Assembly (NCBI RefSeq): GCF_040183065.1
Contig: NC_091131.1
Location: 13,778,800-13,842,799 of the forward strand
Length of the DNA: 64,000 nucleotides
DNA from: Periplaneta americana
Taxonomy: Eukaryota > Arthropoda > Insecta > Blattodea > Blattidae
Direction of reading: 5' to 3'
Position numbers and translations under genes: made by a program. The notes beneath the pieces are model-generated. The model saw only the letters and a list, made by a program, of their open reading frames with translations, had not been told where the DNA came from and did no database searches. Below are positions 10,300-63,956 of this stretch, in pieces. Position 1 is the stretch's first letter; the number at the start of each line of letters is the position of its first letter.

Positions 10300-10412
10300 G
10301 TGGTGGAAGATCCTTGGGAGCATTTTTTCGATATGCGCTACAAGCATCTGAATACACTGAGTAAAAACAACTACGCGTTAATGGCCTACGTTTCGGAAAT
10401 GCTTAACTTCAG
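10300..10412 (+). CDS. IR75-like ionotropic receptor, gene 1, first visible exon (S1 lobe start)
   Basis: This exon encodes the start of the S1 half of the ligand-binding domain of an ionotropic receptor, a ligand-gated cation channel of sensory dendrites. The peptide runs VVEDPWEHFFDMRYKH to AYVSEMLNF. It is bounded by a good acceptor (ttttcag) at 10299 and a donor (gtaagatt) at 10413, entering in phase 0 and leaving in phase 2. It has exactly the length (113 nt) and phases of the gene 2 exon at 58314-58426, which reads ARDEPLENFRNLYTK to TLISEMLNF. The signal peptide and amino-terminal domain exons of gene 1 must lie upstream of the window; I found no candidate for them between 1 and 10299. 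Read-through from a polypyrimidine tract makes this exon look like the tail of a long open frame, but that frame is an artefact. Confidence 0.88.
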
Positions 10413-11127
10413 GTAAGATTTTATGAAATATTTATTTGTTTATGAAAACCTTACCCATCGTTTTGAAAGTATTAAGAAACATTATCAATTTTATTATCGA
10501 AGAGACTGATCGTTTGGTAGAACCAAGAGTAGCTTTCATAAAGAAAAGAAGAAAGAAAGATACTTATGGATCACGGAATAGTCGAACACAATATAAGAAA
10601 GATTATCTTATCATAATCGAATGTTAGAACTGGTAAAAACCATTTAGCAGCATGTCCCTGAAAAAATACGATACAGATGAAAACGTGCGCCTGCTATTAC
10701 TCAGCTTTGGAGAAGAATCCTGATAGAGACTCTCGGTGCTTCCAATTTTGACTTACACCACTTTTGCTCTGAACGGCTCATATCAGCCACAGCCTCAATC
10801 AGAGGTGTGTTTAATGTTATAACAAGTTACTGTAAACTTACGAAAATCTGCTCTTCTGTTATTATCTGTATTTTTCTTATGTCGCACTATTTCGAGGTAG
10901 AGACAGATTTTTGCAGGGCCCTGTTAATTAAATAGTCTTTGTGTGGTTACAGACAGTGTGGTTCCAAATGCCCCCCTTTAGTTTTCTTATGTATCTTGTG
11001 ATATTTGTGCCTTATTCTAACTTGTACTATTAGAGAAATAGTTGTCAAAATGTCCAACTTTTATCTTGTGTATCTATATCGTATTAAACTGTTAGAAATC
11101 TTACAAAGTTATATTAGGTTAAATTGA
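10413..11127. other. Intron, nothing recognised
   Basis: AT-rich intron sequence of receptor gene 1 without motifs I can identify. Confidence 0.4.
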
Positions 11128-11860
11128 TCATCATAATCATCATCATCATCATCAATAATACGATTTGGTCCCATTGGCCCGTTTCGTCTCCATAGCAATA
11201 TTAAAATTGGTCTTTCCAGCGTTTTCTAGGGCGTCCGATTCGTCTTCTCCCTTGCGGTTTATAATGATGTAGTCGGTATGGAATGCGGGTTGGTTCCATC
11301 CTAGATATATGTTCATGCCATTTATTCCTATATTCTGTGATAGTTTCTATAATATTTGGCATATTTAGTTCCCGTCGTATGTCTTCGTTTCGCTTGTGGT
11401 CCAATAAGCTATATCCTGCTATTGGCCTTAGCAGTCTCATTTCAGCTGCTTCTATTCTCTTCATTTGTTGAGTTGTCATACACCATGTTTCCATATGTAA
11501 TAGCCACCTTCTGGTGAAGTCGTCAATGTATAAATTAAATAAAACAGGTGATAAAGAACACCCTTGTCGAACACCTCGTGTTATTTCTTTGCTTTCTTCG
11601 CTTATTCCATTCTTTAGTTTAATTCTAATTTTAGTGTTACTATATAACCCTTGTATTACCCTTATTAGATGATCTGGTATTCCTTTAGATCTCAATACTT
11701 CCCATAATTTTTGACGATTAACAGTGTCAAAAGCTTTAGTGTAATCAATAAAGGCAATGTAAGTTGGGATGTTGTATTCCCTATTTTTCTCAATCATCTG
11801 GCTTATGGAGAACACACAATCGATACAGGATCTATTCTTCCTAAAACCATGTTGTTAAAT
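11128..11860 (-). mobile_element. LINE family D fragment with internally deleted reverse transcriptase
   Basis: The 204-codon minus frame 11201-11815 shows reverse transcriptase motif A (AFIDYTKAFDTVNRQKLW) and motif B (GVRQGCSLSPVLFNLYIDDF), then jumps straight to the C-terminal region (RIEAAEMRLLRPIAGYSLLD, GRRRIGRPRKRW). The YADD catalytic box is missing, so the frame survived a deletion in register. Upstream in the same frame are QHGFRKNRSC-like residues. The 3' end carries a (TGA)n-like tail at 11128-11155. Confidence 0.85.
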
Positions 11861-11990
11861 TGATGTAGAATGGAAAAGAAATATATCCTTAAAATGTTGT
11901 GCATCAAGTTAACGAAATCTTGTATTATGCAAGATTAATGTAACGTTCTATACTTAGGCTATATGTGACGAGATGAACTGTTTGCCATAG

Positions 11991-12164
11991 GATGAACTTG
12001 ACTATGACCGACACGTGGGGGTTCCCCGTGAACGGCACCAATAACTACACGGGCATCGTGGGCCTCATGCAGCGTGGCGAGGTGGAGATCGGGGCGGCCG
12101 GCCTTCTGATCAAGGAGACGCGCATGGACATGGTGGACTACGCCGGGGAGATCGTCACTTTCAG
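11991..12164 (+). CDS. IR75-like receptor, gene 1, S1 lobe exon
   Basis: This exon encodes the second part of ligand-binding lobe S1. The peptide starts MNLTMTDTWGFPVNG and contains YTGIVGLMQRGEVEIGAAG, LLIKETRMDMVDYAGE. The acceptor is tttgccatag; AG from the previous exon plus G here completes an Arg codon. The donor (gttagc) follows TTC AG, phase 2. Exon length, 174 nt, equals the gene 2 exon at 61300-61473. By my alignment the Arg of ETRMD sits where ionotropic glutamate receptors keep the Arg that binds the ligand carboxylate, which fits the acid ligands known for some IR75 receptors; ligand specificity here is not known. The exon is much richer in GC than the surrounding intron. Confidence 0.92.
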
Positions 12165-12436
12165 GTTAGCGCTGCCATTTTCTCTTACAGAAAGAAAAGG
12201 AAGATTGCAGCGTCTATAGACATAGATAACTACATAATAACCAAATGCATCCTTGTTATGATTTCGTATTTTGAAACCACGTGTAGGGAGGCGAAGGAGA
12301 AGGAGAAGGAGAAGGAGAAGAAACGACTACTAAACTATTGCTTCTTACTATAATAAAATCGAACCAAAACCACAATTCGAAACAGATTGTGTCGGAAATC
12401 TTTCGGACATCGCATCCCAATTTATCATTTTATAGA

Positions 12437-13329
12437 ACTTACTTACTTACTGGCTTTTAAGGAAACCGGAGGTTCATTGCCGCCCTCACATAAGCCCGCC
12501 ATTGGTCCCTCTCCTGAGCAAGATTAATCCAGTCTCTATCACCATATCCCACCTCCCTCAAATCCATTTTAATATTATCTTCCCATCTACATCTCGGCCT
12601 CCCTTAAGGCCTTTTTCCCTCCGGCCTCCCAACTAACACTCTATATGCATTTCTGGATTCGCCCATACGTGCTACATGCCCTGCCCATCTCAAACGTCTG
12701 GATTTAATGTCCTTAATTATGTCAGGTGAAGAATACAATGCGTGCAGTTCTGTGTTGTGTAACTTTCTCCATTCTCCTGTAACTTCATCCCTCTTAGCCT
12801 CAAATATTTTCCTAAGCACCTTATTCTCAAACACCCTTAATCTCTGTTCCTCTCTCAAAGTGAGAGTCTAAGTTTCACAACCATACAGAACAACCGGTAA
12901 TATAACTGTTTTATAAATTCTAACTTTCAGATTTTCCGACAGCAGACTGGATGATAAAAGCTTCTCAACCGAATAATAACACGCATTTCCCATATTTATT
13001 CTGTGTTTAATTTCCTCCCGAATATCATTTATATTTGTTACTGTTGCTCCAAGATATTTGAATTTCTCCACCTCTTCGAAAGATAAATTTCCAATTTTTA
13101 TATTTCCATTTCGTACAATATTCTGGTCACGAGACATAATCGTATACTTTGTCTTTTCGGGATTTACTTCCAACCCTATCTCTTTACTTGCTTCAAGTAA
13201 AATTCCCGTGTTTTCCCTAATCGTTTGTGGATTTTCTCCTAACATATTCACGTCATCCGCATAGCCAAGCAGCTGACGTAACCCGTTCAGTTCCAAACCC
13301 TCTCTGTTATCCTGGACTTTCCTAATGGC
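12437..13329 (-). mobile_element. LINE family A, copy 2
   Basis: The 3' end lies at 12437 (acttacttactggctttt on the plus strand). The coding part shows [34 protein letters not shown] and [20 protein letters not shown], broken by a stop and frameshift near 12868. It is 5'-truncated at about 13329. Confidence 0.9.
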
Positions 13330-13546
13330 TATGTTCTTAATTATCATTTTGACTTGCGTGTTAGAAATATTTCAATAAACTTGTCAGCATATTAACATGC
13401 ATTCTTTGTACAAAAACAATACATATACTCGAAGTTCGTAAAATACTTTAAGATATTCAGTTTCACTTCCAACCCATCTTTATTGATTCGGGAACATTCC
13501 CGCTACCCTCTGTTTACATTCCACGAACTAGGACCCACCCACCGTA

Positions 13547-13617
13547 GCACCGCTGGTGTAGTGGTATCATGCGAGATTCCCATTCTTGTGACCCGGGTTC
13601 GATTCCCGGGCGGTGCA
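13547..13617 (+). tRNA. tRNA-Gly (anticodon CCC)
   Basis: This is a 71-nt cloverleaf. The acceptor stem is GCACCGC paired perfectly with GCGGTGC, the discriminator A is at 13617, the anticodon loop is TTCCCAT with CCC at 13579-13581, the B box is GGTTCGATTCC and the A box TGGTGTAGTGG. A run of seven T follows directly (13620-13626), a standard Pol III terminator. From memory the sequence is nearly the same as metazoan tRNA-Gly(CCC). It lies inside the second visible intron of receptor gene 1, on the same strand. Unlike the tRNA-like SINE heads elsewhere in the window, no SINE body follows it, so I take it as a real gene. Confidence 0.9.
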
Positions 13618-14055
13618 ATTTTTTTCTCATTATTTAAGATAGATCTCTTTTCAGCTTGACATTTATGTGTCAAAATGCTGCTGATATGAATACATCTAAA
13701 AGGAATAAATAGCAAATATTCTAAACTAAAACCATTACAAACGTGTTCGGATGGATGAGGAAATAGATATTTAGTTCATTGCAAATAAACTTTTTTGGGA
13801 ATTGAGACTTCCTTCGTTAGTGAGAGGCTAAAGGTGTCATATAGGCACGGTTTCTAAAACAGAAAATACGAACATATCTTATTTAAGGTTTACCAGGCGA
13901 CGATGAAAGACAAAATATGTGAAAACAATTGAATGAGATATATAAACAATTGAATACTCCTTCAGATTTATGTATCATAACGGTATTGTGTCATTAGAAA
14001 TTCCGGGGTAATTACTTAAACTGGGAAGTTTTAAAATCAAAGTTCGGTGTATATA

Positions 14056-14056
<1 letters not shown>
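13618..14056. other. Intron, nothing recognised
   Basis: No repeat or coding motif is seen apart from the T-run ending the tRNA gene. Confidence 0.4.

Positions 14057-14107
<51 letters not shown>
14057..14107 (+). repeat. (AAT)n microsatellite abutting a LINE 3' end
   Basis: The AAT array ends exactly where the minus-strand LINE copy 3 tail begins (ctta at 14107-14110), so on the LINE strand the array forms its 3' tail. Confidence 0.9.
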
Positions 14108-14109
<2 letters not shown>

Positions 14110-14111
<2 letters not shown>

Positions 14112-15016
14112 CAAAAGGCTTTGAGAGAACCCAGAGGTTCATTGCCGACCTCACATAAGCCCACCATCTGTCCCGATCTTAAGCAAGATTAATCCTGTCC
14201 CTAGCATCATATCCCACCTCCCTCAAATCTATTTTAATATTATCCTCCCATCTACATCTCGGCCTCCCCAAAGGTCTTTCCCCCCAGCCTCCCGACTAAC
14301 ACTCTCTAATATGCATTTCTGGATTCGCCCATACGTGCTACATGCCCTGTCCATCTCAAACGTCTGGATTTAATGTTCCTAATTATGTTAGGTGAAGAAT
14401 ACAATGCGTGCAGTTCTGTGTTGTGTAACTTTCTCCATTCTCCCGCTTAGCCCCAAATATTTTCCTAAGAACCTTATTCTCAAACGCCCTGAATCTCTGT
14501 TCCTCTCTCAAAGTGAGAGTCCAAGTTTCACAACCATAAAGAACAACCGGTAATATAACTGTTTTATAAATTCTAACTTTCAGCTTTTTTGAGAGCAGAC
14601 TAGATGACAAAAGCTTCTCAACCGAATAATAACAGGCATTTCCCATATTTATTCTGTGTTTAATTTCCTCCCGAGTCTCATTTATATTTGAAGAGTCCAC
14701 TCCAAGAACGATTCTTGTCGAAAATGAACCAAGACTGTCAATGCATAGCTTAAGACATGTACAATGTACATAGAGAGTTATATGGCATTAACACTGATAG
14801 TCATTGTCCAGTAATGATCGGAAAATCACAGTTAAGCTTTGAGCGCTAAGCATTTTAAACTTTCAATTTCTTCTCCTGCAAAATGTATTCCAAATGACAT
14901 CCATCATTCTTACAGTGGACTCTTCATTTGTTACTGTTGCTCCAAGATATTTGAATTTTTCCACCTCTTGAAAGGATTAAGATTCCCAATTTTTATATTT
15001 CCATTTCGAACAATAT
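14110..15016 (-). mobile_element. LINE family A, copy 3, split by a MITE
   Basis: This is the same C-terminal coding region as the other copies ([40 protein letters not shown]), with frameshifts. A 236-bp TIR insertion at 14690-14925 separates the piece 14110-14689 from 14926-15016, where the LINE resumes at ttactgttgctccaag. Confidence 0.88.
14690..14925. mobile_element. 236-bp TIR insertion in LINE copy 3
   Basis: The ends GAAGAGTCCACT and AGTGGACTCTTC are perfectly inverted. Flanking attt on both sides (LINE consensus has it once) indicates a target duplication of about 4 bp. No coding content. Confidence 0.8.
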
Positions 15017-15239
15017 TCTGGCCGCGAAACCAGGTGGCCCGGGTTCGATTCCCTGTCGGGGCAAGTTACCTGGTTGAGGGTTTTCAGGGGTTTTCCCTCA
15101 ACCCAATATGAGCAAATGCTCGGTAACTTTCAGTGCTGGACCCCGGACTCATTTCACCGACATTATCACCTTCATTTCATTCAGACGCTGAATAACCTAG
15201 GATGCTGATAAAGCGTCGTAAAGTAATCTACTAAAATAA

Positions 15240-15240
<1 letters not shown>
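15017..15240 (+). mobile_element. tRNA-derived SINE, 5'-truncated
   Basis: It starts at ccgcgaaaccaggtggcc, contains the B box gggttcgattcc, then the SINE body caagttacctggttgagg, aaatgctcggtaacttt and ataaagcgtcgtaaagta, and ends in ctaaaataaaataat running into (AAT)n. It is the same family as 25018-25310 and 28998-29196. Confidence 0.85.

Positions 15241-15274
<34 letters not shown>

Positions 15275-15275
<1 letters not shown>

Positions 15276-16219: not shown

Positions 16220-16277
<58 letters not shown>
16220..16277 (+). repeat. (AAT)n, right half of split array
   Basis: Nineteen AAT units directly after the Helitron 3' terminus; the left half is 15241-15274. Confidence 0.9.
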
Positions 16278-16584: not shown

Positions 16585-16796
16585 GGGGGCCTTCATGTTC
16601 CTGAAACCGTCGCTGTCCGAAGTGTCGATAATCTACACGCTGCCGTTCAGCGAGACGGTGTGGGCCACGTTCACGGGCACCGTGCTGATGCTGACCATCG
16701 GCCTGGAGCTGTCCACCAGACTGCAGAAGAAGGACCACGCGCCCTCGGAGTGGAGGGAAACCATCTTCAACTCCATCAGCATAGTCTGTGAACAAG
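16585..16796 (+). CDS. IR75-like receptor, gene 1, TM1 and pore exon
   Basis: This exon carries the end of S1, the first membrane segment and the pore loop. It begins GAFMFLKPSLSEVSIIYTLP; TM1 is around VWATFTGTVLMLTIGLEL, and the pore segment is ETIFNSISIVCEQG. The phases close: AG plus G at the 5' junction, and CAA G before the donor gtaacg (phase 1). The matching gene 2 exon at 63733-63956 shares the FLKPSLSEVSIIYTLPFS block but is 12 nt longer, the difference lying in the linker between TM1 and the pore. Long open frames on the opposite strand here are shadows. Confidence 0.93.
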
Positions 16797-19175: not shown

Positions 19176-19202
19176 GTATCTGTGGAGCCTGTTGTGTTTC
19201 AG

Positions 19203-19411
19203 GAATGTTGCACCCGCCTGAGAACGTGTCGTCGCGGATAATCTTCCTGTCGATGCTGCTACTGTCTTTGTTCGTACTGACGTCATACTCGGCCATCATC
19301 GTGTCGCTGCTGCAGATGTCCAGCAACGCCATCAACACGCTGACGGAGCTCATCGAAAGCGATTTCAAGCTGAGCATGCGCAACATCAGCTACAACACAA
19401 ACTACGTCAAC
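19203..19411 (+). CDS. IR75-like receptor, gene 1, TM2 and S2 start exon
   Basis: This exon contains the second pore-lining helix and the first part of ligand-binding lobe S2. It reads MLHPPENVSSR, then the hydrophobic stretch IIFLSMLLLSLFVLTSYSAI with SYSAIIVSLLQ. SYSAII takes the place of the SYTANL gate motif of ionotropic glutamate receptors, and the variant is typical of the IR75 group. The exon continues NTLTELIESDFKLSMRN to NTNYVN. It enters in phase 1 (GGA across the junction) and leaves in phase 0 at the donor gtaaga. The upstream end is unusual: a TIR transposon ends only 27 bp before the exon, so the polypyrimidine and branch-point region is squeezed between them. Confidence 0.93.
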
Positions 19412-19437: not shown

Positions 19438-19438
<1 letters not shown>

Positions 19439-24578: not shown

Positions 24579-24847
24579 GACACGACTGACCCCGTGCTGA
24601 AGAGGCTGTACGCACAGCTGTACTCACGGCCGTACAAAGAGGCGTTCACCACGCAGGAAGAGGGCGTGGAGAAGATCCGCACCGGACTGAACGCTTTCCA
24701 CGGCGACGCCGACGCCTACAAGGTTATGAGCGACACCTTCGAGGAGTACCACAAGTGTAGGCTGAAGGAGATAAAGATGTACTCCACTGACAAGCTGGCG
24801 TTCCCTGTGAGGAAAGGCTCTCCGTACAGGGAGCACATCACTCGGAG
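24579..24847 (+). CDS. IR75-like receptor, gene 1, S2 lobe exon
   Basis: This exon encodes most of ligand-binding lobe S2. Visible blocks are DPVLKRLYAQLYSRPYKEAF, VEKIRTGLNAFHGDADAYK and TFEEYHKCRLKEIKMYSTDK, then AFPVRKGSPYREHI. The pattern GL-x-AFH-x-D followed by a TFEE-x2-KC-x-L-x-EI block is characteristic of insect IR75 proteins. I start the exon after the acceptor atcaacag at 24578, not at the upstream ATG at 24549, because phase 0 from the previous exon fits and the ATG-proximal residues look intronic. The donor gtaagtg follows CGG AG (phase 2). Confidence 0.92.
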
Positions 24848-25699: not shown

Positions 25700-26694
25700 C
25701 AAATGGCTTTTAAGGAACCCGAAGGTTCATTGCCGCCCTCACATAAGCCCGCCATCGGTCCCTATCCTGTGCAAGATTAATCCAGTCTCTATCATCATAT
25801 CCCACCTCCCTCAAATCCATTTTAATATTATCCTCCCATCTACATCTCGGCCTCCCCAAAGGTCTTTTTCCCTCCGGTCTCCCAACTAACACTCTATATG
25901 CATTTCTGGATTCGGCCATACGTGCTACATGCCCTGCCCATCTCAAACGTCTGGATTTTATGTTCCTAATTATGTCAGGTGAAGGATACAATGCGTGCAG
26001 TTCTGTGTTGTGTAACTTTCTCCATTCTCCTGTAACTTCATCCCGCTTAGCCCCAAATATTTTCCTAATAACCTTATTCTCAAACACCCTTAACCTATGT
26101 TCCTCTCTCAAAGTCAGAGTCCAAGTTTCACAACCATACAGAACAACCGGTAATATAACTGTTTTATAAATTCTAACTTTCAGGTTTTTTAACAGAAGAC
26201 TAGATGACAAAAGCTTCTCAACCGAATAATAACAGGCATTTCCCATATTTATTCTGCGTTTAATTTCCTCCCGAGTGTCATTTATATTTGTTACTGTTGC
26301 TCCAAGATATTTGAACTTCTCCACCTCTTCAAAAGATAAATTTCCAATTTTTATATTTCCATTTCGTATAATATTCTGGTCACGAGACATAATCATATAC
26401 TTTGTCTTTTCGGGATTTACTTCCAAACCGATCGCTTTACTTGCTTCCAGTAAAATTCCCGTCTTTTCCCTAATCGTTTGTGGATTTTCTCCCGACATAT
26501 TCACGTCATCCGCATAGACAAGAAGCTGATGTAACCCGTTCAATTCCAAACCCTCTCTGTTATCCTGAACTTTCCTAATGGCATATTCTAGAGCGAAGTT
26601 AAAAAGTAAAGGTGATAGTGCATCTCCCTGCTTTAGCCCGCAGTGAATTGGAAAAGCATCAGATAGAAACTGACCTATACGGACTCTGCTGTAT

Positions 26695-26695
<1 letters not shown>
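25694..26695 (-). mobile_element. LINE family A, copy 4, best-preserved C-terminal frame
   Basis: The minus frame 25710-26549 (279 codons) is uninterrupted: [20 protein letters not shown] with the reverse transcriptase YADD box, [55 protein letters not shown] and [13 protein letters not shown] to RAAMNLRVP. Further upstream, to about 26695, the frame has [20 protein letters not shown] with a frameshift. It is 5'-truncated, and AAT arrays flank both ends (25661-25693, 26698-26749). Confidence 0.92.
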
Positions 26696-26697
<2 letters not shown>

Positions 26698-26748
<51 letters not shown>

Positions 26749-26749
26749 G
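26698..26749 (+). repeat. (AAT)n microsatellite
   Basis: The array abuts the 5' end of LINE copy 4; together with 25661-25693 it may be one array into which the LINE was inserted. Confidence 0.9.
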
Positions 26750-27189
26750 TGATAAAACAAAAATATTTACAATAATAAAATAAATACTAAGACGGATAAA
26801 ATAAAATATAAAACCACTAGCGAGAGTTAACACAACTTAAATAAGCATATAATAACCGGAAAAAATGACGAACTCGAAAATCAACAGAAAAGTTCGTTGT
26901 ATCGCAGACGACAGCAACCGATGTTGATACAGCGTCGTAAAATAACCCAATAAAAAAAATCACAGCTGCAGCCGTTGTTAGCATCCGCAAACTCACTGCT
27001 CTTCGCCGGATTAAAACTTTACGTACAGCTTACGCAGAATATCCGAAAGCCTGGTTGACGTTATTGGAAGCGGGCGAGAATTGAGTGAAAACGACTAAAC
27101 ATCTAACTGAAAACATTGGCCTCTTACGTATGCCGCTATTCGGAGTCCTCAAGCTCTGCTATCCAATCCATTTCATTGTTTTTTTTTTT

Positions 27190-36885: not shown

Positions 36886-37135
36886 GTCTCGCTGGCTGAG
36901 GGAGATAGGCCTGGTGGGACGAGAGTACAATCGCTGGTTCTACCAGAGGCCAAAGTGCGACTCCAGTGGTCAGAGCTTCGTGAGCGTGCGAAGCCTGGAC
37001 TTCTACCCAGTTATGTTAGTTCTGCTCTTCGGCATGGCTGCCTCCGCTGCGATCTTTGTGGGTGAAGTCGTGCACGTCGCGGTCAAAAGCGGACAATATC
37101 CTTGGATACTTAGAATACTTTCTTGTAGGCGCTGA
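36886..37135 (+). CDS. IR75-like receptor, gene 1, terminal exon with TM3
   Basis: This last exon encodes the end of S2, the third membrane helix and the short cytoplasmic tail. It starts SRWLREIGLVGREYNRWFYQ, has PKCDSSGQSF before the membrane, then TM3 around FYPVMLVLLFGMAASAAIFV, followed by GEVVHVAVKSGQYPWILRI and a TGA stop at 37133-37135. The acceptor cgaccgcag is good, and phase 2 from the previous exon gives Arg. The six visible exons join to 1227 nt, that is 408 codons plus stop. No AATAAA lies in the first 85 bp after the stop; the nearest, at 37224-37229, is inside an inserted LINE. Confidence 0.94.
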
Positions 37136-38930: not shown

Positions 38931-39114
38931 TTGTATGCAAATCACCAGTTGGAAATGCTGCTTCTGTTCACAAGGATCTGTTTAATGCTCGTTGTGGTAT
39001 TTGTTTTTGCTGCTGGTGCTCCTTTAGACCAAACTACGCTCTCCCTCATCACGTCATTCTTACAGCAAAACCACGTGTCTTCGGCCGTTGTTGCGTCTTG
39101 TTGGTCTGCATCGG
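38931..39114 (+). CDS. IR75-like receptor, gene 2, first exon with signal peptide
   Basis: This is the first coding exon of the second receptor. From the ATG at 38955 it reads MLLLFTRICLMLVVVFVFAA, a clear signal peptide, followed by GAPLDQTTLSLITSFLQQNH and VSSAVVASCWSAS, the start of the extracellular amino-terminal domain. An in-frame ATG lies 24 nt upstream at 38931; either could be used, and the downstream one puts the hydrophobic core closer to the N-terminus. The donor gtacgt follows TCG G (phase 1), and exon 2 begins with AG, so GAG closes the junction. A TATA-like atataag lies about 60 bp upstream. The intergenic distance from the gene 1 stop is 1.8 kb. Confidence 0.82.
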
Positions 39115-40688: not shown

Positions 40689-41751
40689 GGGGAGAGGATG
40701 GTATTTTTTGGTGAAAAATGAGAATATTTTCAAAAAAAAACTTTAAAATACGCTGTGATATGTGTAGAATGCATGGCATAACATTTTGTTGGTATTTGTG
40801 CCCTTATCGGATATTGAGTCGCCATTTTTAAACTTCCTGCGTTATGGATTTTTAAATCACTCGCCCACTTTTATTGTTGTTTCCGGTAAATTAAATTTTC
40901 AATTTTTTTTTCTTTAAAGTGCCCTTTGATATGTGTGGAATGCATAGCATAACATTTTGTGGGTATTTGTGCCCTTATCGGATGTTGAGACGTCATTTTT
41001 AAACTTCCTGCGTTATGGATTTTTAAATCACTTGCCCACTTTTATTGTTGTTTCCAGTAAATTAAATTTTCAATTTTTTTTTCTTTAAAATACCCTTTTA
41101 TATATGTGGAATGCATTGCACAACATTTTGTGGGTATTTGTGCCCTTATCGGATGTTGAGACGTCATTTTTAAACTTCCTGCGCTATGGATTTTTAAATC
41201 ACTCGCCCGCTTTTATCGGTTTCCTGTAACTTTTTTTTTTTTTTTTTTTTTTTTTTTGCTACATTGCCAGACAAAAATGGATATAATTTCTGAACTATTA
41301 AAGATGTATGCATGAACTTTAGAACACACATTCTTTAGACTATTAGGAAACGTTTCTCTGTAACAGAATTTTGTTAATTGATAATTGATACGTCCCTTTG
41401 TTTGGAAGAAAGGAAATAAGAAAGTTGTTATTAAATTTAATTGTTTATTTTACAAACGTAGGGACTAATATCAAAATTCTGCTACAGACAGTTTTTAGAA
41501 CATGCTTTTGCAAATACATTGCAAAAAACTGTTTGAATCTATCTTTAAAAACGGTTTAGATATAGGCCTATCGGTTTTAGTACAATCCTGCATTGGGTAT
41601 ATTTTTTTTCAAATTTGGGCCCCCAAATATTTTTTTTTTCAAAATATTTTTATTTGGTTGAGTTGCCACAGCTATCAGCTCTCTACATACAAAAAATTAA
41701 TATTTTTCACCAAATAGGAAAAAAGTTTTAAAAAAATACCATCCTCTCCCC
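40689..41751. mobile_element. 1063-bp TTAA-inserting TIR element
   Basis: The termini GGGGAGAGGATGGTATTTTT and aaaataccatcctctcccc have TTAA on both sides (40685-40688 and 41752-41755), inside LINE codons. TTAA fits piggyBac or Kolobok; no transposase is seen. The interior has a 171-bp tandem repeat. Confidence 0.87.
40757..41240 (+). repeat. 171-bp tandem repeat, about 2.8 units
   Basis: Units start at gatatgtgtagaatgcatgg (40757), gatatgtgtggaatgcatag (40928) and the like at 41099; shared blocks include tttgtgcccttatcggat and cttcctgcgttatggatttt. It lies inside the TTAA element. Confidence 0.88.
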
Positions 41752-45934: not shown

Positions 45935-46006
45935 CTCCGGCGCCGGGATTTGAACCCGGGTTTTCAGCTCTACGTGCTGATGCTTTATCCACTAAGCCAC
46001 GCCGGA
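45935..46006 (-). tRNA. tRNA-like sequence (anticodon GTA), probably a SINE head or pseudogene
   Basis: It folds as a full cloverleaf: acceptor TCCGGCG/CGCCGGA, D arm GCTT/AAGC, anticodon stem TCAGC/GCTGA with loop ACGTAGA, T arm CCGGG/CCCGG. Position 33 is C instead of the near-universal U, no 3' T-run follows, and the same loop and 3' sequence (ccggagcgaatttttctcc-like) recur at 8465-8520. That marks a repeat family, not a working tRNA-Tyr gene. Confidence 0.6.
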
Positions 46007-49180: not shown

Positions 49181-49344
49181 AGAAGGTACGGCTGAACAAA
49201 CACCTGTCAAGGAACAATATCATGTCGTCATTCCAAGACCCTGGCGCTGATGTTAACGTCCCACTCCTGCTGAAGTCTGAATACTTTCATACTGGAGTCG
49301 TTATAGACCTTGAGTGTAAAGGCAGTATTAATTTCATATCAGCT
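49181..49344 (+). CDS. IR75-like receptor, gene 2, amino-terminal domain exon 2
   Basis: The peptide is KVRLNKHLSRNNIMSSFQD, PGADVNVPLLLKSEYFHTG, VVIDLECKGSINFISA. The block with a hydrophobic run followed by GVV-x-D-x-EC is typical of the extracellular amino-terminal domain of insect IR75 receptors. The acceptor is ttttgttccag and the donor gtaagtg. The exon enters in phase 1 and leaves in phase 0. It is separated from exon 1 by a 10-kb intron filled with LINEs and DNA transposon remnants. It has no ATG-initiated frame of useful length, so ORF scans miss it. Confidence 0.87.
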
Positions 49345-50887: not shown

Positions 50888-51202
50888 GCTGAAAAGAGTA
50901 ACCACTTGAAATTGCTGCATCAGTGGCTGGTGCTAGCGATGACTTACAAGCCAACTCCACAAGGGGAAGAAGACCAGCTGACCTTGGCCCTAGAACCACT
51001 CACACTGCCCGTGGACAATCAGCTGATGGTCGCACGTCCAGGATCACATTCAGAACAAATTCTACTGCAGGAGATGTGCAGACTGGCGCCTCACTTAGCC
51101 ATCATAACCACACCTCTAGTTGCGTGGTCTCCAGGTCAGCTACTGCCAGACAGAGTTTCAAGACAAGACTACCACGGAATTATATTGAATACTGCCTTAG
51201 TG
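50888..51202 (+). CDS. IR75-like receptor, gene 2, amino-terminal domain exon 3
   Basis: This is a 315-nt exon, phase 0 at both ends. It reads AEKSNHLKLLHQWLVLAMTY, then a hydrophilic middle, then EMCRLAPHLAIITTPLVAW and finally RVSRQDYHGIILNTALV. The last block (R-x2-x-Y-x-GI-x-L) closes the amino-terminal domain just before the ligand-binding lobe in IR75 proteins. The acceptor is catccacag and the donor gtgagtga. The open frame continues past the donor for about 28 codons, but that part is intron. Confidence 0.88.
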
Positions 51203-51625: not shown

Positions 51626-51934
51626 TCAAAAGTGTTGAAATGTGGTGTCAAATAGTGTTTGTGTTCTGCAATTGATCGGTGTGTTGAGAATTTGATTGGG
51701 TTGAGTTTTAGTGTGTCTGTATATTTCATATTGTTCTAGTGTGTTGAGTTTTTGGTTTTTGGGTTGTATGTGTAGGATTTCCATGTCTGTATTTATGTTA
51801 TTGTATGTGTGGTTAGCATTAGTTATGTGTCCCCTGGTTATTGCTTTAATGTGTTCTTTGTATCGAGTTTGGAATGATCTGCCTGTCTGTCCAATGTAGA
51901 AACTGTCGCAACTATTGCATGTGAGTTTGTACAC
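51626..51934 (-). pseudogene. GIY-YIG endonuclease domain of Penelope-like element
   Basis: It begins GVYKLTCNSCDSFYIGQTGR then SFQTRYKEHIKAITRGHITN, the Penelope-type GIY-YIG motif with its preceding CNSC cysteines and the Y-x-GQT-x-R block, followed by NTLEQYEIYRHTKTQPNQIL. The frame is open to its own stop, but the upstream part of the protein is frameshifted. Confidence 0.88.
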
Positions 51935-52212
51935 GCCTGTGTGGTTGTATTTATTTGTTTGTGTTGTTTGTGTGTTGAGATGTCTTTGTAGTGTGTTTTC
52001 TGTTCTCTATGCTATGTTGTATTTCTGTTTTCTTAATGAGGATGCGATCTTGTGTGTGTTTTTGTTTTCGTATGTTAGTGTGATGTATTTCTTGTGTTCT
52101 TGTGTTTTTGTTGTGTTTTGTGTGTTTTTGTGTTTGTTGAGTTTTTGTTTTGTCTTCCTTATAATGTTGTCTATTATGTTTGGGGGTTGTAACCGTTTTC
52201 TTGTGCTATGTA

Positions 52213-52577: not shown

Positions 52578-53587
52578 GAATCGGGGATTGCAGAAACAAC
52601 ACGTCATGAAAATTAAATTTTTCAGTAGACACAAACAACGGTAGACCACATCATTGGTTATAGTACTGGCTTCTTCAGACAGAAGCCTAATAGATGTGTC
52701 GTTTTATACCAAATTGATTGGAATCTAATGAATTGTTAATGAAATAAATCAATATATATTAGCTTGACAAGTGCTGTTTCTGCAAGGAATTCAAAATTGT
52801 AGTATAATAATTCCAGTTCAACTAAAGTTTATTTGTCAAATTAGGGATATGATACATGCATAGGCCTACTGTGTACTTAACACATAAGTTCAGCATTTAA
52901 ATTAACTTATTTTTCCACAATAGGCCACTGCAGAATATTATTGTAAAATTCTTGATATTCATGTGGTATGTAACGCATTAGTTTGCGTAAATCGTCAAGC
53001 TTCTCTCTTTGAATAGGCACGATTTTGTCTGGATATGCCAATGAAGAAGGTAAATATGGTATTCTCCTTTGTACTTACAAGCAGCCATTCTCATGGGGGC
53101 AGACAAAATAATAATCTTTTTTCTTCCATCATTTTAATGATGTCAAAATTGCTTACACAAATTTTGGCCACTCAAGCGCAATTACGAAGGCCGTGAAAAA
53201 TAAGTTTCCCTGGGGCCGTTTACAGAAAAAGAACTACATTTCATGGAAAGTTTTATTGGAACAGATATAGCAATTGTTGAGTTATTTTTCAACATATTCC
53301 TCACCAGAAATTAGATATTTGTCGTTCAGTGGGATCAATTTTTGTGTCCTTGTGTCGTAGATGTCTGCCGTCTGGAATAAGAACCAATGTGTCGGCACAT
53401 GTCTTGGACTTTTGTTATTTCTGCGCGCTTCCAGGATTTCACAGGTCTCCAAATGTGAGACGGCTATACTGACATACAATGGTTTCTGCATAGAACGATA
53501 GCCCTACCCAATCAACAGTTCATGAAACTCGAATAAACTCATTTCGCCACACACGGTGACATTTGCTGTTTCTGCAATCCCTGATTC
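52578..53587. mobile_element. 1.0-kb TIR element, class unassigned
   Basis: GAATCGGGGATTGCAGAAAC at 52578 is mirrored by gtttctgcaatccctgattc ending at 53587. A minus frame at 53282-53491 (FLFQTADIYDTRTQKLIPLN then DKYLISGEEYVEK) looks protein-like, but I do not recognise it. Confidence 0.65.
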
Positions 53588-53639
53588 AATGACAATAAGG
53601 TTAAATATTCACTGTTCAGAAGATTATAGCTTTCTTTTT

Positions 53640-54000
53640 CTGCGTTTTCTTTTATATTAGGCATCAGGTATATAACGAGTTAAAGTCCAACAATAGTCTG
53701 CAAGCATATTGATACTCCACAGTCCTTGGTATCTTTTTTCTATAGTTGAAATTTCTTGATATGCTCATCATTGAAATCGCCACAATTCTCGGGGAAGAAT
53801 TCAGGATGGGAGTAAAGGAAGTCAATTTTCAAGGACATTTTATAACCCATGGTTTCATACATCAACGGTAAATTTTTCAGTCGTTCTACATAGAAACAGG
53901 CACCTGTACATCCGTGTGATTTACTTCAAGTACAAAAATCAGGGAGTAGCCGCTTATTAAGGAACGAAAAAATTCTACCAATGTCAGACACAGGCCAAGC
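53640..54000 (-). pseudogene. Decayed repeat ORF (HPEFFPENCGDFNDEH family)
   Basis: Minus-strand codons read MSLKIDFLYSHPEFFPENCG then DFNDEHIKKFQ, a frameshift, then EKRYQGLWSINMLADYCWTL and TRYIPDA. From memory this FPEN-x-G-x2-SDEHGERFHQD ... MLADYCW-x-L block recurs in many insect repeat-derived predicted proteins; its function is not known to me. Confidence 0.6.
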
Positions 54001-54418
54001 ATGCTGCAGCGATGAGAACATGACATATTTAATTCATATCCACATTAACCTAACAACTTACAGAGATATATAGGAAATTACTTTAACATTACAGCAAAAG
54101 AAATTGTCAAAAAAAAATTTTTAAAAATGTTAATTTTTGTATCAACACACACTAAAAAAACACAAATATTCAGAAAGATCCAAACTATAAATGTGCAAAG
54201 TTTCATAACTGTGCGATAGTTTCTCACAAAATTGTACCTGAAAATTAACATGGCGGGGATAGGGTCTAAATCGATAACGTGTTAAATTGCAAAAATCATA
54301 TTAAAGAAATTATCCCCAAACTAAATTCAGCTTGTCTTGCTATTAGATCTATGCAAAAGATAGTAAATATCAATACCTTAAAAACAATATACTTTGCATA
54401 CTTCCACTCGGTAATGAG

Positions 54419-56614
<2,196 letters not shown>

Positions 56615-57559
56615 GTAATGAGTTTTGGAATAATATTCTGGGGAAATTCCACAGATAGTAACAGTATATTCCTATTACAAAAAGAGTAATTTGAATAATG
56701 GTAGGTGCCAAATCTATGGAATCGTGTAGGACTATTTTCAAAAAACTACAAATAATGCCCATGGCTTGTCAGTATATATTTTCATTAATAATCTTCCTCT
56801 TATATAATCGTGAAGACTTTGTAACTAATTCAACACTTCATAGCATAAATATACGTCAAAAAATGACTTTCATACTCCATCGGGAAGTCTATCGTGCTAA
56901 CAAAAAGGAGTGCGTTATATGGCAGTAAAAATTTTTAATAGCCTCCCTATCGATATAAAAAATGAAACTCAACATACAAGATTATTTAGGGCCAAATTAA
57001 ATAAATACCTAATTTCTCACGCCTTCTATTCTGTAGGTGAATTCATCACATTCAATAAGACTTCATGAAATTGATACTAAAACTTTGTGTTGTACTAGTA
57101 GACTATATTGTAAATCTCTTCTGTATATATTTCATCTAGACTGTGGCTATAAATTAAGATTTTATAATAGTATTAAGTTTTTTGACTTGTTCCATATTCT
57201 AGCTTTAAAGCAATGTATGAATACCATGGAATGTTAATAAATACAATACAATACAATCCCCCCTAAAAATATTACAACAAAATAAAATCAGTTACACTAA
57301 ATATTTCATAGTAAAAGTATTTCTATGATTATAATTCATACTCAAAATAAATATTATTACATTTAATGTTATAGCTAGAAAACAGGAACCATGGAATGTT
57401 TGATTAATTGGCATTATTTGTATATAAAAATATTTAAAAATAAATAATAACTTAATAATTATTAGTCCGATTAAATTCAAATTTGGTAATATGATTACTG
57501 TTAATGCTGTTAATTGACAGTAAAAATTGTAAGAAAATCTGTCAAGAAATATGGATGTT

Positions 57560-58295: not shown

Positions 58296-58313
58296 GCGTG
58301 TGATTCGTTACAG

Positions 58314-58426
58314 GCAAGAGACGAACCTCTGGAGAACTTCCGGAATTTATACACCAAGGATAAGAACTCCTTAGACAAGTGCAACTACGAGCTTGTGACA
58401 CTCATCTCAGAGATGCTCAATTTCAC
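58314..58426 (+). CDS. IR75-like receptor, gene 2, S1 lobe start exon
   Basis: This is the counterpart of the gene 1 exon at 10300-10412: same 113-nt length, same phases (0 in, 2 out). The peptide is ARDEPLENFRNLYTKDKNSL then DKCNYELVTLISEMLNF. The acceptor is ttcgttacag and the donor gtaagtc. Remnants of a mariner-type transposase lie within about 20-180 bp upstream on the opposite strand, so the 3' end of this intron is partly transposon-derived. Confidence 0.9.
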
Positions 58427-58558
58427 GTAAGTCATACAATTATTTTGGTCTGTCCTACTTCTACGTTAATCGTATTCTATTATTTTCCATGTAATGTTTT
58501 ACTCTCTTTTATAGTGCGAATGTTGTGTCCCTTTCAATAACATTATTACGCATGCTCC

Positions 58559-58599
58559 CTTCTTCTTCTTCTTCTACTACTTCTTCTTCTTCTTCTTCT
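58559..58599 (+). repeat. (CTT)n microsatellite
   Basis: About 13 CTT-like units with two interruptions, in the intron after gene 2 exon 4. Confidence 0.85.
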
Positions 58600-58996
58600 C
58601 AACTATTTCTCCTATCTCGTCATATCAGACTATGGCTGTAAACGTTTTGTGCATTTATAGTTCAAATGTTTGCAATATATAATGATATTTCCAAGAATTC
58701 TCGTGCCAAGTCGAATTAACAAGCGTTTCTGGGTCATTCCATACAAAATTTTAAGAATATGCCAGGGATGTCATGAATTTTTTGTGCTTTTAATATAATA
58801 ATGTTATTATGAAAATAAATTAAACTGCCAACTGTGACCGCCATATCATTAATATTTTAGTCATACGGATGACTGAAAAATAGGTGGCAGTTAAATGTTA
58901 TCCATCATTTAAAATATTCTAGACACCCTATATGTAGTGTCATCGAAACTAAACAGACGCCATTGTAAACCTGAATAACCATATTTTAATACCGAA

Positions 58997-59175
58997 GGGC
59001 CGTATTCATAGACATTTTTAGCGCGGGCTTTCGGTGGATTATCAGCGTTTTTCGTATTCATAAACCAGTGTTAGCGATAGGATATGATTTGAATTCTGTA
59101 CAAGTAACCAGTGGATAGCCGGGGCTAGCTTAGTACGCTCGTAGCGCGTGCTGCGAAATGTCATGAATAACACCC
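58997..59175. mobile_element. 179-bp Harbinger-like MITE
   Basis: gggccgtattcatagacatt at the left is mirrored by aatgtcatgaataacaccc at the right, with inner GCGCG-containing arms (tagcgcgggc and gtagcgcgtgct). GGGCC-TATTCATAGAC ends are typical of arthropod Harbinger MITEs (from memory). Target duplication not clear. Confidence 0.6.
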
Positions 59176-59986
59176 TAAAAGACTAATCCGAATAATATTA
59201 AGGCATGTTCATAAAAACGCCTCATTGAAAAAAATAAATACTTTTATATTCGAATGCAACAAATTAAATTCATGCGAATTCATTCATATTAAAGAAAATC
59301 TTATTCCTAATCCATCTCCCAAGTTTTATGACTTTGTCTCAAAAACCCTATGAATAATTAAATTAATAAAATCATTCATTTTTGTTCCGACGACGGTTGA
59401 AAATCGCTTGCTGTGTGTGGCAGTCTCAGCGTTCGCGAGACTTCGTAACGATGAGTAATCTCAAACGTTCGTTTCCCTGACCTTGATCGCGCAACATTCT
59501 GTACGACGGGAGAGCCTATCTGCTGAGCTCCTTTGTTCCGGTGAGTTATTTTTATTAAAAACTGACATGATATATAAGTCAACATTCTGAAATTTTCACA
59601 GTGGAATCAATATACCCTAAAGAATTAAACACATGCTTTTTCGTCTATAAAAATGAATGGCATTTTGTGTTCTATATATATTTTTTTAATTATTTTACGG
59701 TAGGTAACTATTTAAAAAATTATTTTTTTTTTCATTTTAAGGGAATTTATAAACAAGGCTGTCCTTTTTCGAATTGCATTGAAATCACTTTTCCATCTTC
59801 CTTTACATAATAAGAAAACGTGAATGAATGAAACCGTGTTCTTTGTTAAACCAATATTTTAAATTCTGATTACTGCCAAACTATGAAAGATATAAATACA
59901 ATATTGCTTGAAATTCATATTTAGAACATACGAAATAACCTACTACAATATTTTTAACTTCTGAGACATCATGGTTCAAAAACATA
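59176..59986. other. Intron, nothing recognised
   Basis: AT-rich; short open frames without known motifs. Confidence 0.35.
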
Positions 59987-60558
59987 CTGCGTGTTCAGTC
60001 CAAAGTGTGTCATGGTTCGCTGTATGACGTCGTGTGGCTAGCCGATGAGCCTAGAGAATTCAATCTTCCTACATTTCCTCAAAGGCGTATTACCTACTGT
60101 ATGTGCCAGAGAAGTTGCCTGGCAAGTACGGCGTTCATTCTGAAGAGTACTTACCGATACGTACGGTATTGCCGGTAGTGGCAGGAATGTGAACTTTTTG
60201 GAAACACGTACTGAGGTGAGTTTTTTCTTACTGTCGGGATATGGGAAGAGGATTAAGACGATTACTTACGTATTTGTTGACATTAACTTCGACGGTCAAC
60301 ATGGACACGGAGCATTTGATTTGTGTTGTGGAATGTTGTCTTACGCAACCGATGATAAATACCTGCGTACGACTTGGCCGCGCAAAACACAGTTCGAAAA
60401 AGGTTATGGTAGCACACACACACCGTATAGACACGTTCTCAAGTTCAGGTTGAACGCCTTGAATAATAGGCAAATTCTCTGGCATAAAAGCTGAAACTCG
60501 CTTCAAATCCTTGACTCACAACAGTGACGTCATGACACACTTTGAAATAAACACCCAG
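59987..60558. mobile_element. CTGGGTGTTC MITE, copy 2 (572 bp)
   Basis: The left end ctgcgtgttcagtccaaagt and the right end actttgaaataaacacccag are flanked by TA at 59985-59986 and 60559-60560. It is the same family as 30286-30891, inserted in the opposite orientation. Confidence 0.82.
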
Positions 60559-60779
60559 TACTTTTTTGCATGGAATGACCCTGACTATCTTCCATTTTTA
60601 ATTGCATTTCTCTTGTATTGCAATCTGTTTTATTGTGTTGCACATTATTGTGTTGGAGGCCTGCTCCTGTTTATTAACATTTCATTTTCTGTGCTGCTCT
60701 GTTTTTCATTACCTGCATTTCTGAAGTCTTGTAATTAAATTATAAATGTAATTATAATTGTAAATTTTGTTCTTAATAT

Positions 60780-61235
60780 TATAGTTGTAATCTTCTGGTA
60801 GAGGGGAAGAGAAGGCCTGATGGCCTTGTCTACCGGGTTAAATAAATAAATAAAAATAAATAAATAAATAAGTAAATAAGTAAGTAAATAAGTAAATAAG
60901 TAAGTAAATAAGTAAATAAATAAGTAAATAAGGAAATAAGTAAATAAGAAAATAAGTAAGTAAATTAAATAAATTAAATTAAATTAAATTAATAAATAAA
61001 TAATTAAATACATAAATAAATAAAATTAATAAATTCAATAAATAAATAAATAAATAAATAAATTAATTAATTAAATAAATAAGTAAGTAAAGAAATAAAT
61101 AATTAAGTAAATAAGTAACTAAATATATATACATATATATAAAGAAATAAAACAATAAAAAATAAAGAAATAAATAGATAAGTAAATAAATAAATACATA
61201 AATAAATAAAAATAAAATAAATTCTTGTATAAGAC
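60780..61235 (+). repeat. Retroposon 3' stem-loop followed by AAATA/AAGT low-complexity array
   Basis: ctggtagaggggaagagaag, gcctgatggcc, ttgtctaccggg forms a nested stem-loop, then about 390 bp of degenerate aaataaataagtaaata units up to 65 bp before the next receptor exon. Confidence 0.75.
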
Positions 61236-61299
61236 TTTACGTCTCAAAGAATAAGAATAAAACGCAGCTGCTTGCACCTAGTTTTATGCTTGCCCGCAG

Positions 61300-61473
61300 C
61301 ATGAACATAACTTTGGTAGACACGTGGGGCTTCCCCAAGAAGGACACAGACTGCTACGACGGCATAGTGGGGGCCATGCAGTGTGGCCACTGCGTCATCA
61401 GCGCCTCTGGCATTCTCTACAAGCACAGCCGTTGGGACAGAGTGGACTATGCCGGGGAGTCCTACGTCTACAG
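61300..61473 (+). CDS. IR75-like receptor, gene 2, S1 lobe exon
   Basis: This is the counterpart of 11991-12164 with identical length (174 nt) and phases. The peptide begins MNITLVDTWGFPKKDTDCYD and continues GIVGAMQCGHCVISASGILY then KHSRWDRVDYAGESYVY. It shares MN-x-T-x2-DTWGFP, GIVG-x-MQ-x-G and R-x-D-x-VDYAGE with gene 1. The Arg aligned with the ligand carboxylate-binding residue of glutamate receptors (SRWD) is kept. The acceptor is gcccgcag and the donor gtgagtc. Confidence 0.92.
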
Positions 61474-62000
61474 GTGAGTCACAAACAGCACACTCCTACG
61501 ATTTTGAAAGTATTGGTTGAGAATTCGAAAAATCGGAAAATCTGGTTCCAACACGCCGAATTTTTTTACTTTAGCCTACTATATTGCAACCCAACTGTTG
61601 TTATTCTTGTTGTTGTTTAGTCAACTGTACTATGACAGGTTTCAACCTTTAAGTGACAGCAACGAGGCATCACTCATGAGGCAACTAAGTCAGAGATAAT
61701 GGAGTAGGGTGATCAGTTGATTGCTTGCAAGCAAACGTTCAAAACATCGGGACTTCGGGAGTGATCAACTCTACAACGTCAAGCAGCCTTGAATCGTCAC
61801 AGTTGTTTATACCAGACTGAACTTTTATCTGTTTTGGCAATGTTATATATGTATAAACAATCAAGTATCCTTCCTGAAACATCATCTCTACCTTTCAGTG
61901 TAGTAATCCGTTCCCCAATTTTTATTTAATTACTAGGCCCTTATTAGGCTAGGAAATTCTTTTTCGTTTGAGATCAAGTATACAATCTCAAGTAAAAGTC

Positions 62001-62110
62001 GACCTGGTTGCGAGTTAGTATAGCGCTGGCCTTCTATGCCCAAGGTTGCGGGTTTGATCCCGGGCCAGGTTGATGGCATTTAAGTGTGCTTAATGCGACA
62101 GGCTATTCTC
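62001..62110 (+). mobile_element. tRNA-derived SINE head (Talua-like)
   Basis: gacctggttgcgagttagta, tagcgctggccttctatgcc and the B box gcgggtttgatcccggg form a near-complete tRNA-like fold with an extra base in the anticodon stem; body gatggcatttaagtgtgctt follows and then decays. It resembles termite and cockroach tRNA-derived SINEs (from memory). Confidence 0.65.
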
Positions 62111-63732
62111 TAATAATAACACTGATATGCTGCCTAGCAGTTCTCAGAACTTGAGGCGATACTATTACAAAAATGGATCACGGATACACCACATAGCGCT
62201 TAGAAACACGAAGCAACCAAGAATTCTTAAAAAGTTAACGTACTTCTGAGTGACATAATTGATTTAGTTTTAAAATTTTTAAAAGTTCTTTTAAAAAAAT
62301 TATTTAAGTAAAAAAAAAACTCCAAAATTTATGTGTTTATAATAGATTTCCTGAAAATATGTATTTACAAAATTTCTTGTGAAAATATGTGTTTTTATGT
62401 GAAATGAAATTCGGGTTTTGAATTTGAAACTTCATGTTCGGAATTTTTAACTTTGTTAATTGTTTCATTTTGGGGATGCCGATAAGCTTAATGTTTTACA
62501 ATGTCAATTTTTATTTCCACCTTTGCTTATCTTATATATTTGGATTTATATTAACGTTTTCTATACGCAGTGTGTATCATCTTCAGATATATATGTCAGT
62601 ATGTGTTGTAAATACCTAGCCTCTTATTATGTAGTGGGTTATTCACGTGCTTGTGACCTATCATTGTTTCTTAATTTAGCTACAATTACTATAAAATGTA
62701 CTTGATACAGTGTGGGGTTGCTTGTTGTGATTTTGTTAAAAGTCTTTCTTTTGAAAGCACACATAGGTAAATAGAAAACTATGTTAAAACCAATATTATG
62801 ACACATAACTGTAAACAAATAAAATATACACTATAAAACACTATAAGACACTGTAAACACTATGGCACTTTTATCATGTTATGATTGGCTGTGTTAGCCT
62901 GTTATGTCGTAAAATCGGGTTGTTATTACTGTTTCTTGGTTAAAAAACACTGTCTTTCTGACGCACTTTCACTGATTATCTGTAGTATGGGATTGTATGT
63001 TGTTGGAGTTTTTGGAGTTTTTTAGGCTTATTTTTTGTTGTTCATGTTGACTACTGTGAAGATCATTGATGCTTTAGCTGTATGTAAGTTCTTAGACGTA
63101 TATAATACAAGATATTTTTGTTGGGTCCGTATATCTAGTTCAGCCGTGCGTGTCTGCAAACAATTTACATTATATCAATAGGTTGAATTAAGATGGTTTT
63201 GTTAAGTTGAAATTTATCTCGCGTCAAACTGATGCGTGGAAAAATACTTACAATTATAGCTGATGTCGGGGTGTTCCTGTGTGGTGCATGGCTGAGACTA
63301 GAATGGCGGGCTCAATTACAGTATTTTCTTAATGTACGTCATCTGGAATAGGAAGTGGAGGGGGTATTGGTGGGACCTGTGTGGTTGTTGTGTATGTTTG
63401 TTTTGGCGGGAATAATTTAAGTAGGTTAAAAAGTGGGTTATTTGTATTGGCTATTTGTTCGTTGAGGAGGGGTTTTCCTGAGTTAAATTCTTTTATAATG
63501 TGGAATTATTCCGCGGTCTCTATTGTGGAGTTATGTATGATTTTTAATATTTTTAATGTGTGACAACAGACACAATCCCACGGTCCCAAAACTTCACCGC
63601 CGACAACCCAGGCACATGTTTGTCCACTAGATAGATATGAATGCAGTGTCAATTTAAATGCGTTGTATAGTTTCTTCAGAAGCAGTGTGTGGATGATTCA
63701 GTACGTAGCGACTGAACTGTGCTCTGTTCCAG
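62111..63732. other. Intron, nothing recognised
   Basis: AT-rich gene 2 intron; GT-rich between about 62990 and 63560 on the plus strand. No motif or terminal repeat identified. Confidence 0.4.
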
Positions 63733-63956
63733 ACTTTCGTTCAAGTTCTTGAAGCCGTCGCTGTCAGAGGTCTCCATAATCTACACGCTTCCATTCAGCC
63801 GATCCGTGTGGATTACGTACATGTCTATGGTGGCCGTTCTGGCAGTGGCGCTGTATGTTACAGAGAAGTTGGAGCGCTACATGAACCCACGCGAAGAACC
63901 CCCTCTGGTGTTCGGAGACGCCGCTCTCAATTCTTTAGCAATTATGTGTGCAGAAG
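63733..63956 (+). CDS. IR75-like receptor, gene 2, TM1 and pore exon; gene continues beyond window
   Basis: This is the counterpart of 16585-16796. The peptide is LSFKFLKPSLSEVSIIYTLP then FSRSVWITYMSMVAVLAVAL (TM1), a linker with NPREEPPLVFGD, and the pore segment AALNSLAIMCAEG. The acceptor is gttccag and the donor gtgagag (phase 1), matching the next-exon phase used in gene 1. The exons for TM2, S2 and TM3 must lie to the right of the window. The six visible exons join to 391 codons without a stop. Confidence 0.92.

Follow-up and report, generated by a model that had tools for sequence, protein, structure and literature searches.

Two adjacent nine-exon, probably IR75-like, ionotropic receptor genes in a 14-gene tandem array of the cockroach Periplaneta americana

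The window analyzed here is a stretch of 64,000 nucleotides (nt) of contig C15 (NC_091131.1; C15:13778800-13842799) from the cockroach Periplaneta americana, within a 3.23-Gb genome of 91 contigs. Across window positions 10300-63956 lie twelve plus-strand exons, six of gene 1 and six of gene 2, two adjacent genes of the insect ionotropic receptor (IR) family of smell or taste receptors. A preliminary description of the same DNA had claimed twelve such exons with closed phases and supplied no exon list; the exons were re-derived from splice sites, reading frames, and homology. All ten introns within the window parts of the two genes have GT-AG borders, and the phases close. The genes follow a nine-exon plan in which the intron phases are, in order, 1-0-0-2-2-1-0-2. 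The G+C content is higher in the exon than in its 500-base flanks for 12/12 exons. The twelve exons are confirmed as real and not chance.

Gene 1 is present in the window from exon 4 to exon 9, with exon lengths of 113, 174, 212, 209, 269, and 250 nt. These encode 408 residues followed by a TGA stop, the count first reported. Exon 4 (10300..10412, +; start phase 0, end phase 2) begins the S1 ligand-binding lobe and was placed by its splice sites and a 113-nt homologue in gene 2. The remaining exons were placed by splice sites and alignment with the glutamate receptor GluA2. Exon 5 (11991..12164, +) carries the S1 arginine that aligns to GluA2 R485, and exon 6 (16585..16796, +) contains the end of S1, the membrane segment M1, and the pore region. 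Exon 7 (19203..19411, +) encodes M3, where SYSAIIVSLL aligns to SYTANLAAFL of GluA2, and the start of S2. Exon 8 (24579..24847, +) aligns to the S2 ligand-binding lobe, and exon 9 (36886..37135, +), which includes the stop codon, completes S2 and adds M4.

Gene 2 is represented by exons 1 to 6, with lengths of 160, 164, 315, 113, 174, and 224 nt. Together these are 1150 nt or 383 residues, in place of the 391 previously given; the source of the difference was not found. Exon 1 (38955..39114, +) has the start ATG and a signal-peptide-like N-terminus. The match to the Pfam domain IR75A_N begins here, and an exon 89% identical is found in two nearby genes (g3 and g4, described below). Exons 2 (49181..49344, +) and 3 (50888..51202, +) belong to the IR75A_N domain, as judged from splice sites and Pfam. 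Exon 4 (58314..58426, +; splice sites) starts S1, exon 5 (61300..61473, +; splice sites and alignment) holds the arginine aligned to GluA2 R485, and exon 6 (63733..63956, +; splice sites) covers the end of S1, M1, and the pore region.

The lengths common to the two genes (113/113, 174/174, and 212/224) had been correctly noted. In these common exons 4, 5, and 6, protein identity is 47% across 168 residues (E 6e-51). Across 164 codons, the proportions of synonymous (pS) and non-synonymous (pN) differences are 0.61 and 0.34, with a bootstrap 95% range of 0.16-0.38 for pS minus pN; the corresponding divergences are dS ~1.28 and dN 0.45. Six-frame tblastn revealed no third copy within the window, and no N-terminal exons of gene 1 were detected in positions 1-10300. 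One long non-repeat frame upstream of gene 1 exon 4, at 5649-6047 (+), has no Pfam match, and a search of viral contigs with gene 1 matched no relatives.

The two genes appear as halves because the window edges cut both, and their remaining exons lie in the flanks, of which 100 kb was fetched on either side. Exon models outside the window were required to have AG/GT borders, the phases of the template, and no stop. For gene 1, the models are exon 2 (C15:13771532-13771695, +), exon 3 (C15:13775528-13775836, +), and a candidate exon 1 (C15:13753355-13753502, +), the best-scoring candidate in the flank. For gene 2, they are exon 7 (C15:13845974-13846182, +), exon 8 (C15:13851624-13851895, +), and exon 9 (C15:13855588-13855831, +). 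With its candidate exon 1, gene 1 encodes 615 residues over a 62.6-kb span, and gene 2 encodes 624 residues over 38.1 kb; in each, the sole stop is at the end. The longest intron of gene 1 is 18 kb, a value dependent on the exon 1 candidate, and the second longest is 13.3 kb.

Both complete proteins pass the Pfam cut-offs for IR75A_N (PF24576; 51.7 bits for gene 1 and 55.9 for gene 2, cut-off 27) and for the ligand-gated channel domain Lig_chan (PF00060; 35.7 and 45.3 bits, cut-off 30.8). Scored singly against IR75A_N, exons 1, 2, and 3 of gene 2 give no score, 13.6 bits, and 11.4 bits. Joined in genomic order they reach 59.3 bits in a single stretch; two permutations of the order give 30.2 and 31.5 bits, split over three broken stretches yet still above the cut-off. 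The window half of gene 1 scores 36.9 bits for Lig_chan and aligns with the AMPA receptor GluA2 from S1 through S2 (E 3.4e-12), and that of gene 2 has a weak match to the NMDA receptor GluN2A (E 7.4e-4). Both genes are certainly ionotropic receptors. The genome also holds many long open Lig_chan frames.

Genes 1 and 2 are members of an array of 14 genes on the same strand at C15:13.29-14.00 Mb (~0.7 Mb). The array genes are labeled A-H and g0-g5; gene 1 (g1) is the tenth and gene 2 (g2) the eleventh. A whole-genome search with gene 1 matched exons 8 and 9 14 times each in the array, on one strand, and a search with the gene 2 half found exon 3 for 13/14 array genes; these genome match counts, and those of related loci, are lower bounds. 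Exons 3-5 of gene H had no match in the genome searches with genes 1 and 2, nor within 10 kb upstream of its exon 6 when searched with exons 3-5 of near relatives. Exons 6-9 are modeled open to the final stop in 14/14 genes, the absence of stops having been demanded of the models. Exon 7 is 209 nt in 14/14 genes, a length that was not demanded. In genes A and B, exons 4 and 5 are fused into 287 nt without intron 4 (C15:13293670-13293956 and C15:13334138-13334424). After the fused exon, a search for GT donors gave no good model, and a common GC donor in the right phase was taken, which is apparently used. Related single loci are located at C15:10.75-10.77 Mb and C11:7.97 Mb; C12:1.2 Mb, C5:18.0 Mb, C11:177 Mb, and a handful of further sites match less strongly. 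An array tree, in which the GluA2 fragment is a very long outgroup branch and carries a long-branch warning, groups A with B, C with D, E-H with g0, and g2-g4 with one another, and leaves g1 and g5 unplaced. The array arose by local duplication, given its one orientation and one exon plan. The preliminary description had proposed such duplication from two genes; it is larger than the window shows, and the search for further copies in the adjacent sequence that the description had suggested yields twelve more genes.

The arginine in the R485 column of GluA2, a residue common to acid-sensing IRs, is present in 13/13 array genes with exon 5, including genes 1 and 2. Mutation of the S1 arginine in IR84a abolishes ligand responses (PMC7882480, PMC8575457). 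In fly IR75a and IR75c, the T and D/E contacts in S2 are kept as well. A tuning hotspot of fly IR75 receptors has been equated with GluA2 Y732 (PMC8575457). In this column genes 1 and 2 have leucine, and seven residues (L, V, T, C, S, I, and M) are found over the 14 genes. The IR75 receptors of flies act with Ir8a on acids (PMC6175461). The conserved arginine and the effect of the IR84a mutation suggest that genes 1 and 2 may encode tuning subunits for acids that work with IR8a. Each encoded protein has an IR75A_N-type N-terminus behind a signal-peptide-like start, a two-lobed S1-S2 ligand-binding domain (LBD), and a channel of the ionotropic glutamate receptor type. In the proposed mechanism, the receptor would sit in the cilia of antennal sensory neurons as a heterotetramer with the co-receptor IR8a. 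Between the lobes it would bind a carboxylic acid, held by the conserved S1 arginine, and the channel would open. We infer the IR8a partner, the acid ligands, and antennal expression by analogy with other insects. Direct support extends to the gene structure, the domains, the arginine, the array, the open frames, and the excess of synonymous over non-synonymous change. As a whole, the reading of genes 1 and 2 as adjacent nine-exon IR75-like receptor genes in a 14-gene tandem array, with a proposed IR8a-dependent acid sensing, is likely.

How far IR75A_N identifies an IR75 gene was judged from a genome-wide search that listed 37 exon matches: the C15 array accounts for 4, a cluster at C11:176.8-177.3 Mb for 8, and other locations for 25. 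The C11 cluster is on the minus strand and has the top seven scores, above the C15 array; its members may represent this genome's more typical IR75 genes. From these matches, 2/8 exons of the C11 cluster and 8/25 of the exons elsewhere were sampled, and 10/10 pass the profile singly, with 68.6 and 65.1 bits for C11 and 38.1-48.2 bits for the other eight. The latter loci (L081-L088) are distributed over C1, C5, C7, C8, C9, C13, and C14, and several have VNIPFDCEFLVAQ- and TEVYRV-like stretches.

A competing explanation is that genes 1 and 2 are true ionotropic receptors outside the IR75 acid branch, resembling, for example, the cockroach group BgerIr101-196 of Blattella germanica, IR64a, or the IR25a-dependent IR75d. 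In that case, carboxylic acids sensed together with IR8a would not be the ligands. Several observations weigh against the IR75-like, acid-sensing reading, and most of them lend themselves to this alternative. IR75A_N is not specific here, as 8/8 sampled loci resembling another IR group pass with one exon, and exon 3 of gene 2 alone scores under all eight. The profile is therefore necessary at most and insufficient for IR75 membership, and its use as proof of membership was dropped. The plan of nine exons and eight introns is also described for BgerIr101-196, a non-IR75 set that includes a 14-gene expansion, a likeness by description only (PMC6175461). Together with IR25a, fly IR75d responds to an amine, pyrrolidine (PMC7882480). 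HMMER and MAFFT alignments disagree on the position of the T655 and E705 contact columns of S2. The Pfam domain Lig_chan-Glu_bd (PF10613) stays below its cut-off of 30, at 27.5 bits in gene 1 and 18.4 in gene 2; this shortfall is not treated as defining, because the ligand-binding domains of IRs are highly divergent (PMC7882480). The trees hold no named IR75 reference, so the branch (75a, 75d, 64a, 31a, 84a, or a cockroach-only group) is not nameable from them. On the other side, a tree built on exon 3 from five genes of the array, both sampled C11 exons, and the eight other loci (unrooted, midpoint root, no named reference) joins the array with the C11:177-Mb exons, apart from the eight, with support of 97/99. 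In an exon-7 tree, which carries long-branch warnings, the 14 array genes group with the C5 and C12 loci to the exclusion of GluA2 and three further IR loci (90/96). Both trees separate the array from loci of this genome that look like another IR group; that these are of the BgerIr101-196 kind is a guess. The S1 arginine, kept wherever exon 5 is present, also speaks for the acid branch. Placement outside that branch is accordingly considered unlikely, though it has to be reckoned with. The earlier designation of these genes as IR75-like stands insofar as they are ionotropic receptors, pass IR75A_N, and group with the best-scoring cluster by exon 3. It falls short of proof, as other IR loci pass the same profile. 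Genes 1 and 2, and the array with them, are probably IR75-like.

That the exons are decaying or non-functional copies is very improbable. The region is dense in transposon fragments, 43.8% of Blattella IRs are pseudogenes (PMC6175461), and exons 3-5 of gene H went undetected. The demand for no stop in choosing flank models also means that open frames there are partly by construction. Against decay, 12/12 window exons are open with both splice signals, pS exceeds pN, and the completed genes have a single terminal stop each. The start of gene 1 is less secure, since its exon 1 is a candidate. This exon could be a leftover of a g0-like gene, with the true start of gene 1 elsewhere: it is 71% identical to exon 1 of g0 with a dS of 0.24, when the other g0-g1 exons have a dS of at least 1.9 or are saturated. 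The candidate nonetheless splices in phase to exon 2 and contains the start of the IR75A_N match made by the full-length protein. The next, unrelated candidate within 44 kb scored 1, compared to 26-29 for the chosen one. A leftover exon is therefore regarded as doubtful.

Divergence between neighboring array genes is uneven among exons. In the pair g2-g3, exon 7 has 1.0/52.3 synonymous differences per site and exon 8 has 18.0/55.3 (Fisher p 1.9e-5); identity is 96.4% over a 1677-bp tract surrounding exon 7, compared to 80.0% and 84.5% for the blocks around exons 5 and 8. For C-D, dS is 0.20 in exon 6 versus 1.21 in exon 8 (heterogeneity p 8e-13). Exon 7 stands out in g4-g5 (p 6e-10) and exon 1 in g0-g1 (p 5e-7). 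The heterogeneity test covered 13 pairs, with g1-g5 left out; the pairs are not independent and the p values are uncorrected. On this basis, 8/13 pairs have p <0.05, and E-F, F-G, G-H, E-g0, and g3-g4 do not. A permutation test of runs of identical synonymous codons was applied to the 78 pairs of 13 genes (Bonferroni limit 0.00064, floor 0.0005). D-E (exon 9) and g2-g3 (exons 6-7) are below the limit, both at the floor, and C-D exon 6 is at 0.0010. These jumps in synonymous divergence and runs of identical codons support gene conversion, and the pattern suggests gene conversion or exon exchange between neighboring genes of the array. A constantly low mutation rate of a single exon was rejected as the cause of the unevenness, as the low exon differs between pairs. 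In 5/6 chosen pairs, LBD pS is greater than channel pS (Wilcoxon p 0.0625), with E-F reversed. A modular array, in which recurrent conversion homogenizes the channel exons (6, 7, and 9) and the ligand-binding exons (5 and 8) escape and diversify, is a tentative and rather unlikely extension of this pattern. If true, new ligand specificities would be built upon a common, continually refreshed pore.

The introns of both genes contain mobile elements and repeats. Intron 3 of gene 2 has a hAT-like transposon frame of 530 codons (54785-56374, +; Pfam DUF659, 47.1 bits) in a tract at 54411-56619. A copy at C15:13754896-13757104 shares 99.7% identity with this 2.2-kb tract and likewise 99.7% with another copy, C15:13723498-13725708 in gene g0; such identity indicates recent movement. 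The same intron holds several broken minus-strand frames (52910-53925) that resemble one decayed coding region. Searches of four pieces against Pfam (one sub-threshold match), two against PDB, and one against viral contigs gave no convincing match. A GIY-YIG domain above the Pfam cut-off is located at 51629-52006 (-), presumably as in Penelope-like retroelements. A reverse transcriptase frame like those of long interspersed nuclear elements is found at 25713-26786 (-; RVT_1, 57.8 bits), and related-looking fragments recur across introns. Two transfer RNAs are predicted, tRNA-Gly(CCC) at 13547-13617 (+) in a gene 1 intron and tRNA-Tyr(GTA) without an intron at 45935-46006 (-) in a gene 2 intron; each is either a gene or a tRNA-derived repeat. 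Immediately ahead of gene 1 exon 4, a 1.2-kb pyrimidine-rich TC array (8936-10168) gives rise to long spurious open frames. In gene 2 intron 1, roughly three copies of a 171-bp tandem repeat occupy 40741-41216.

The two genes resemble the Drosophila IR75 subfamily (Ir75a-d, 31a, 64a, and 84a) in the IR75A_N N-terminus, the S1-M1-pore-M3-S2-M4 order, the S1 arginine, and the possession of several introns. They differ in the Y732-column residue, which is leucine here and varied over the array, and their membership of the named clade is putative. An expanded IR75 lineage is known from another blattodean, Blattella germanica, where 26 IR75 genes are mostly intact (PMC6175461). In that genome, 2.2 Gbp against the 3.23 Gb here, other IRs make up BgerIr101-196, a set with eight introns, and a large clade whose members mostly lack introns (PMC6175461). 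The 14 genes here form one same-strand array. For P. americana, the genome paper counts 640 IRs and gives 3 kb as the median intron (PMC5861062), and an antennal transcriptome assigned six IRs to the IR75 and IR64a groups (PMC4899716). By a word search of its main text, "IR75" is absent from the genome paper (PMC5861062). A literature search confined to listings and selected passages found neither an IR75 array of this kind nor gene conversion among IRs; absence is not claimed.

The expansion of IR75 in a cockroach is already published (PMC6175461), and these genes add members; knowledge of the receptor family itself is unchanged. The Pfam IR75A_N profile is broader than its name and alone does not single out IR75 genes. 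What the locus provides is a full model of each of two IR75-like chemoreceptors, along with an array of 14 genes in known order and with introns that exceed 10 kb. As a natural series, the array lends itself to following how tuning residues change after duplication, and to asking whether gene conversion spares the ligand-binding exons.

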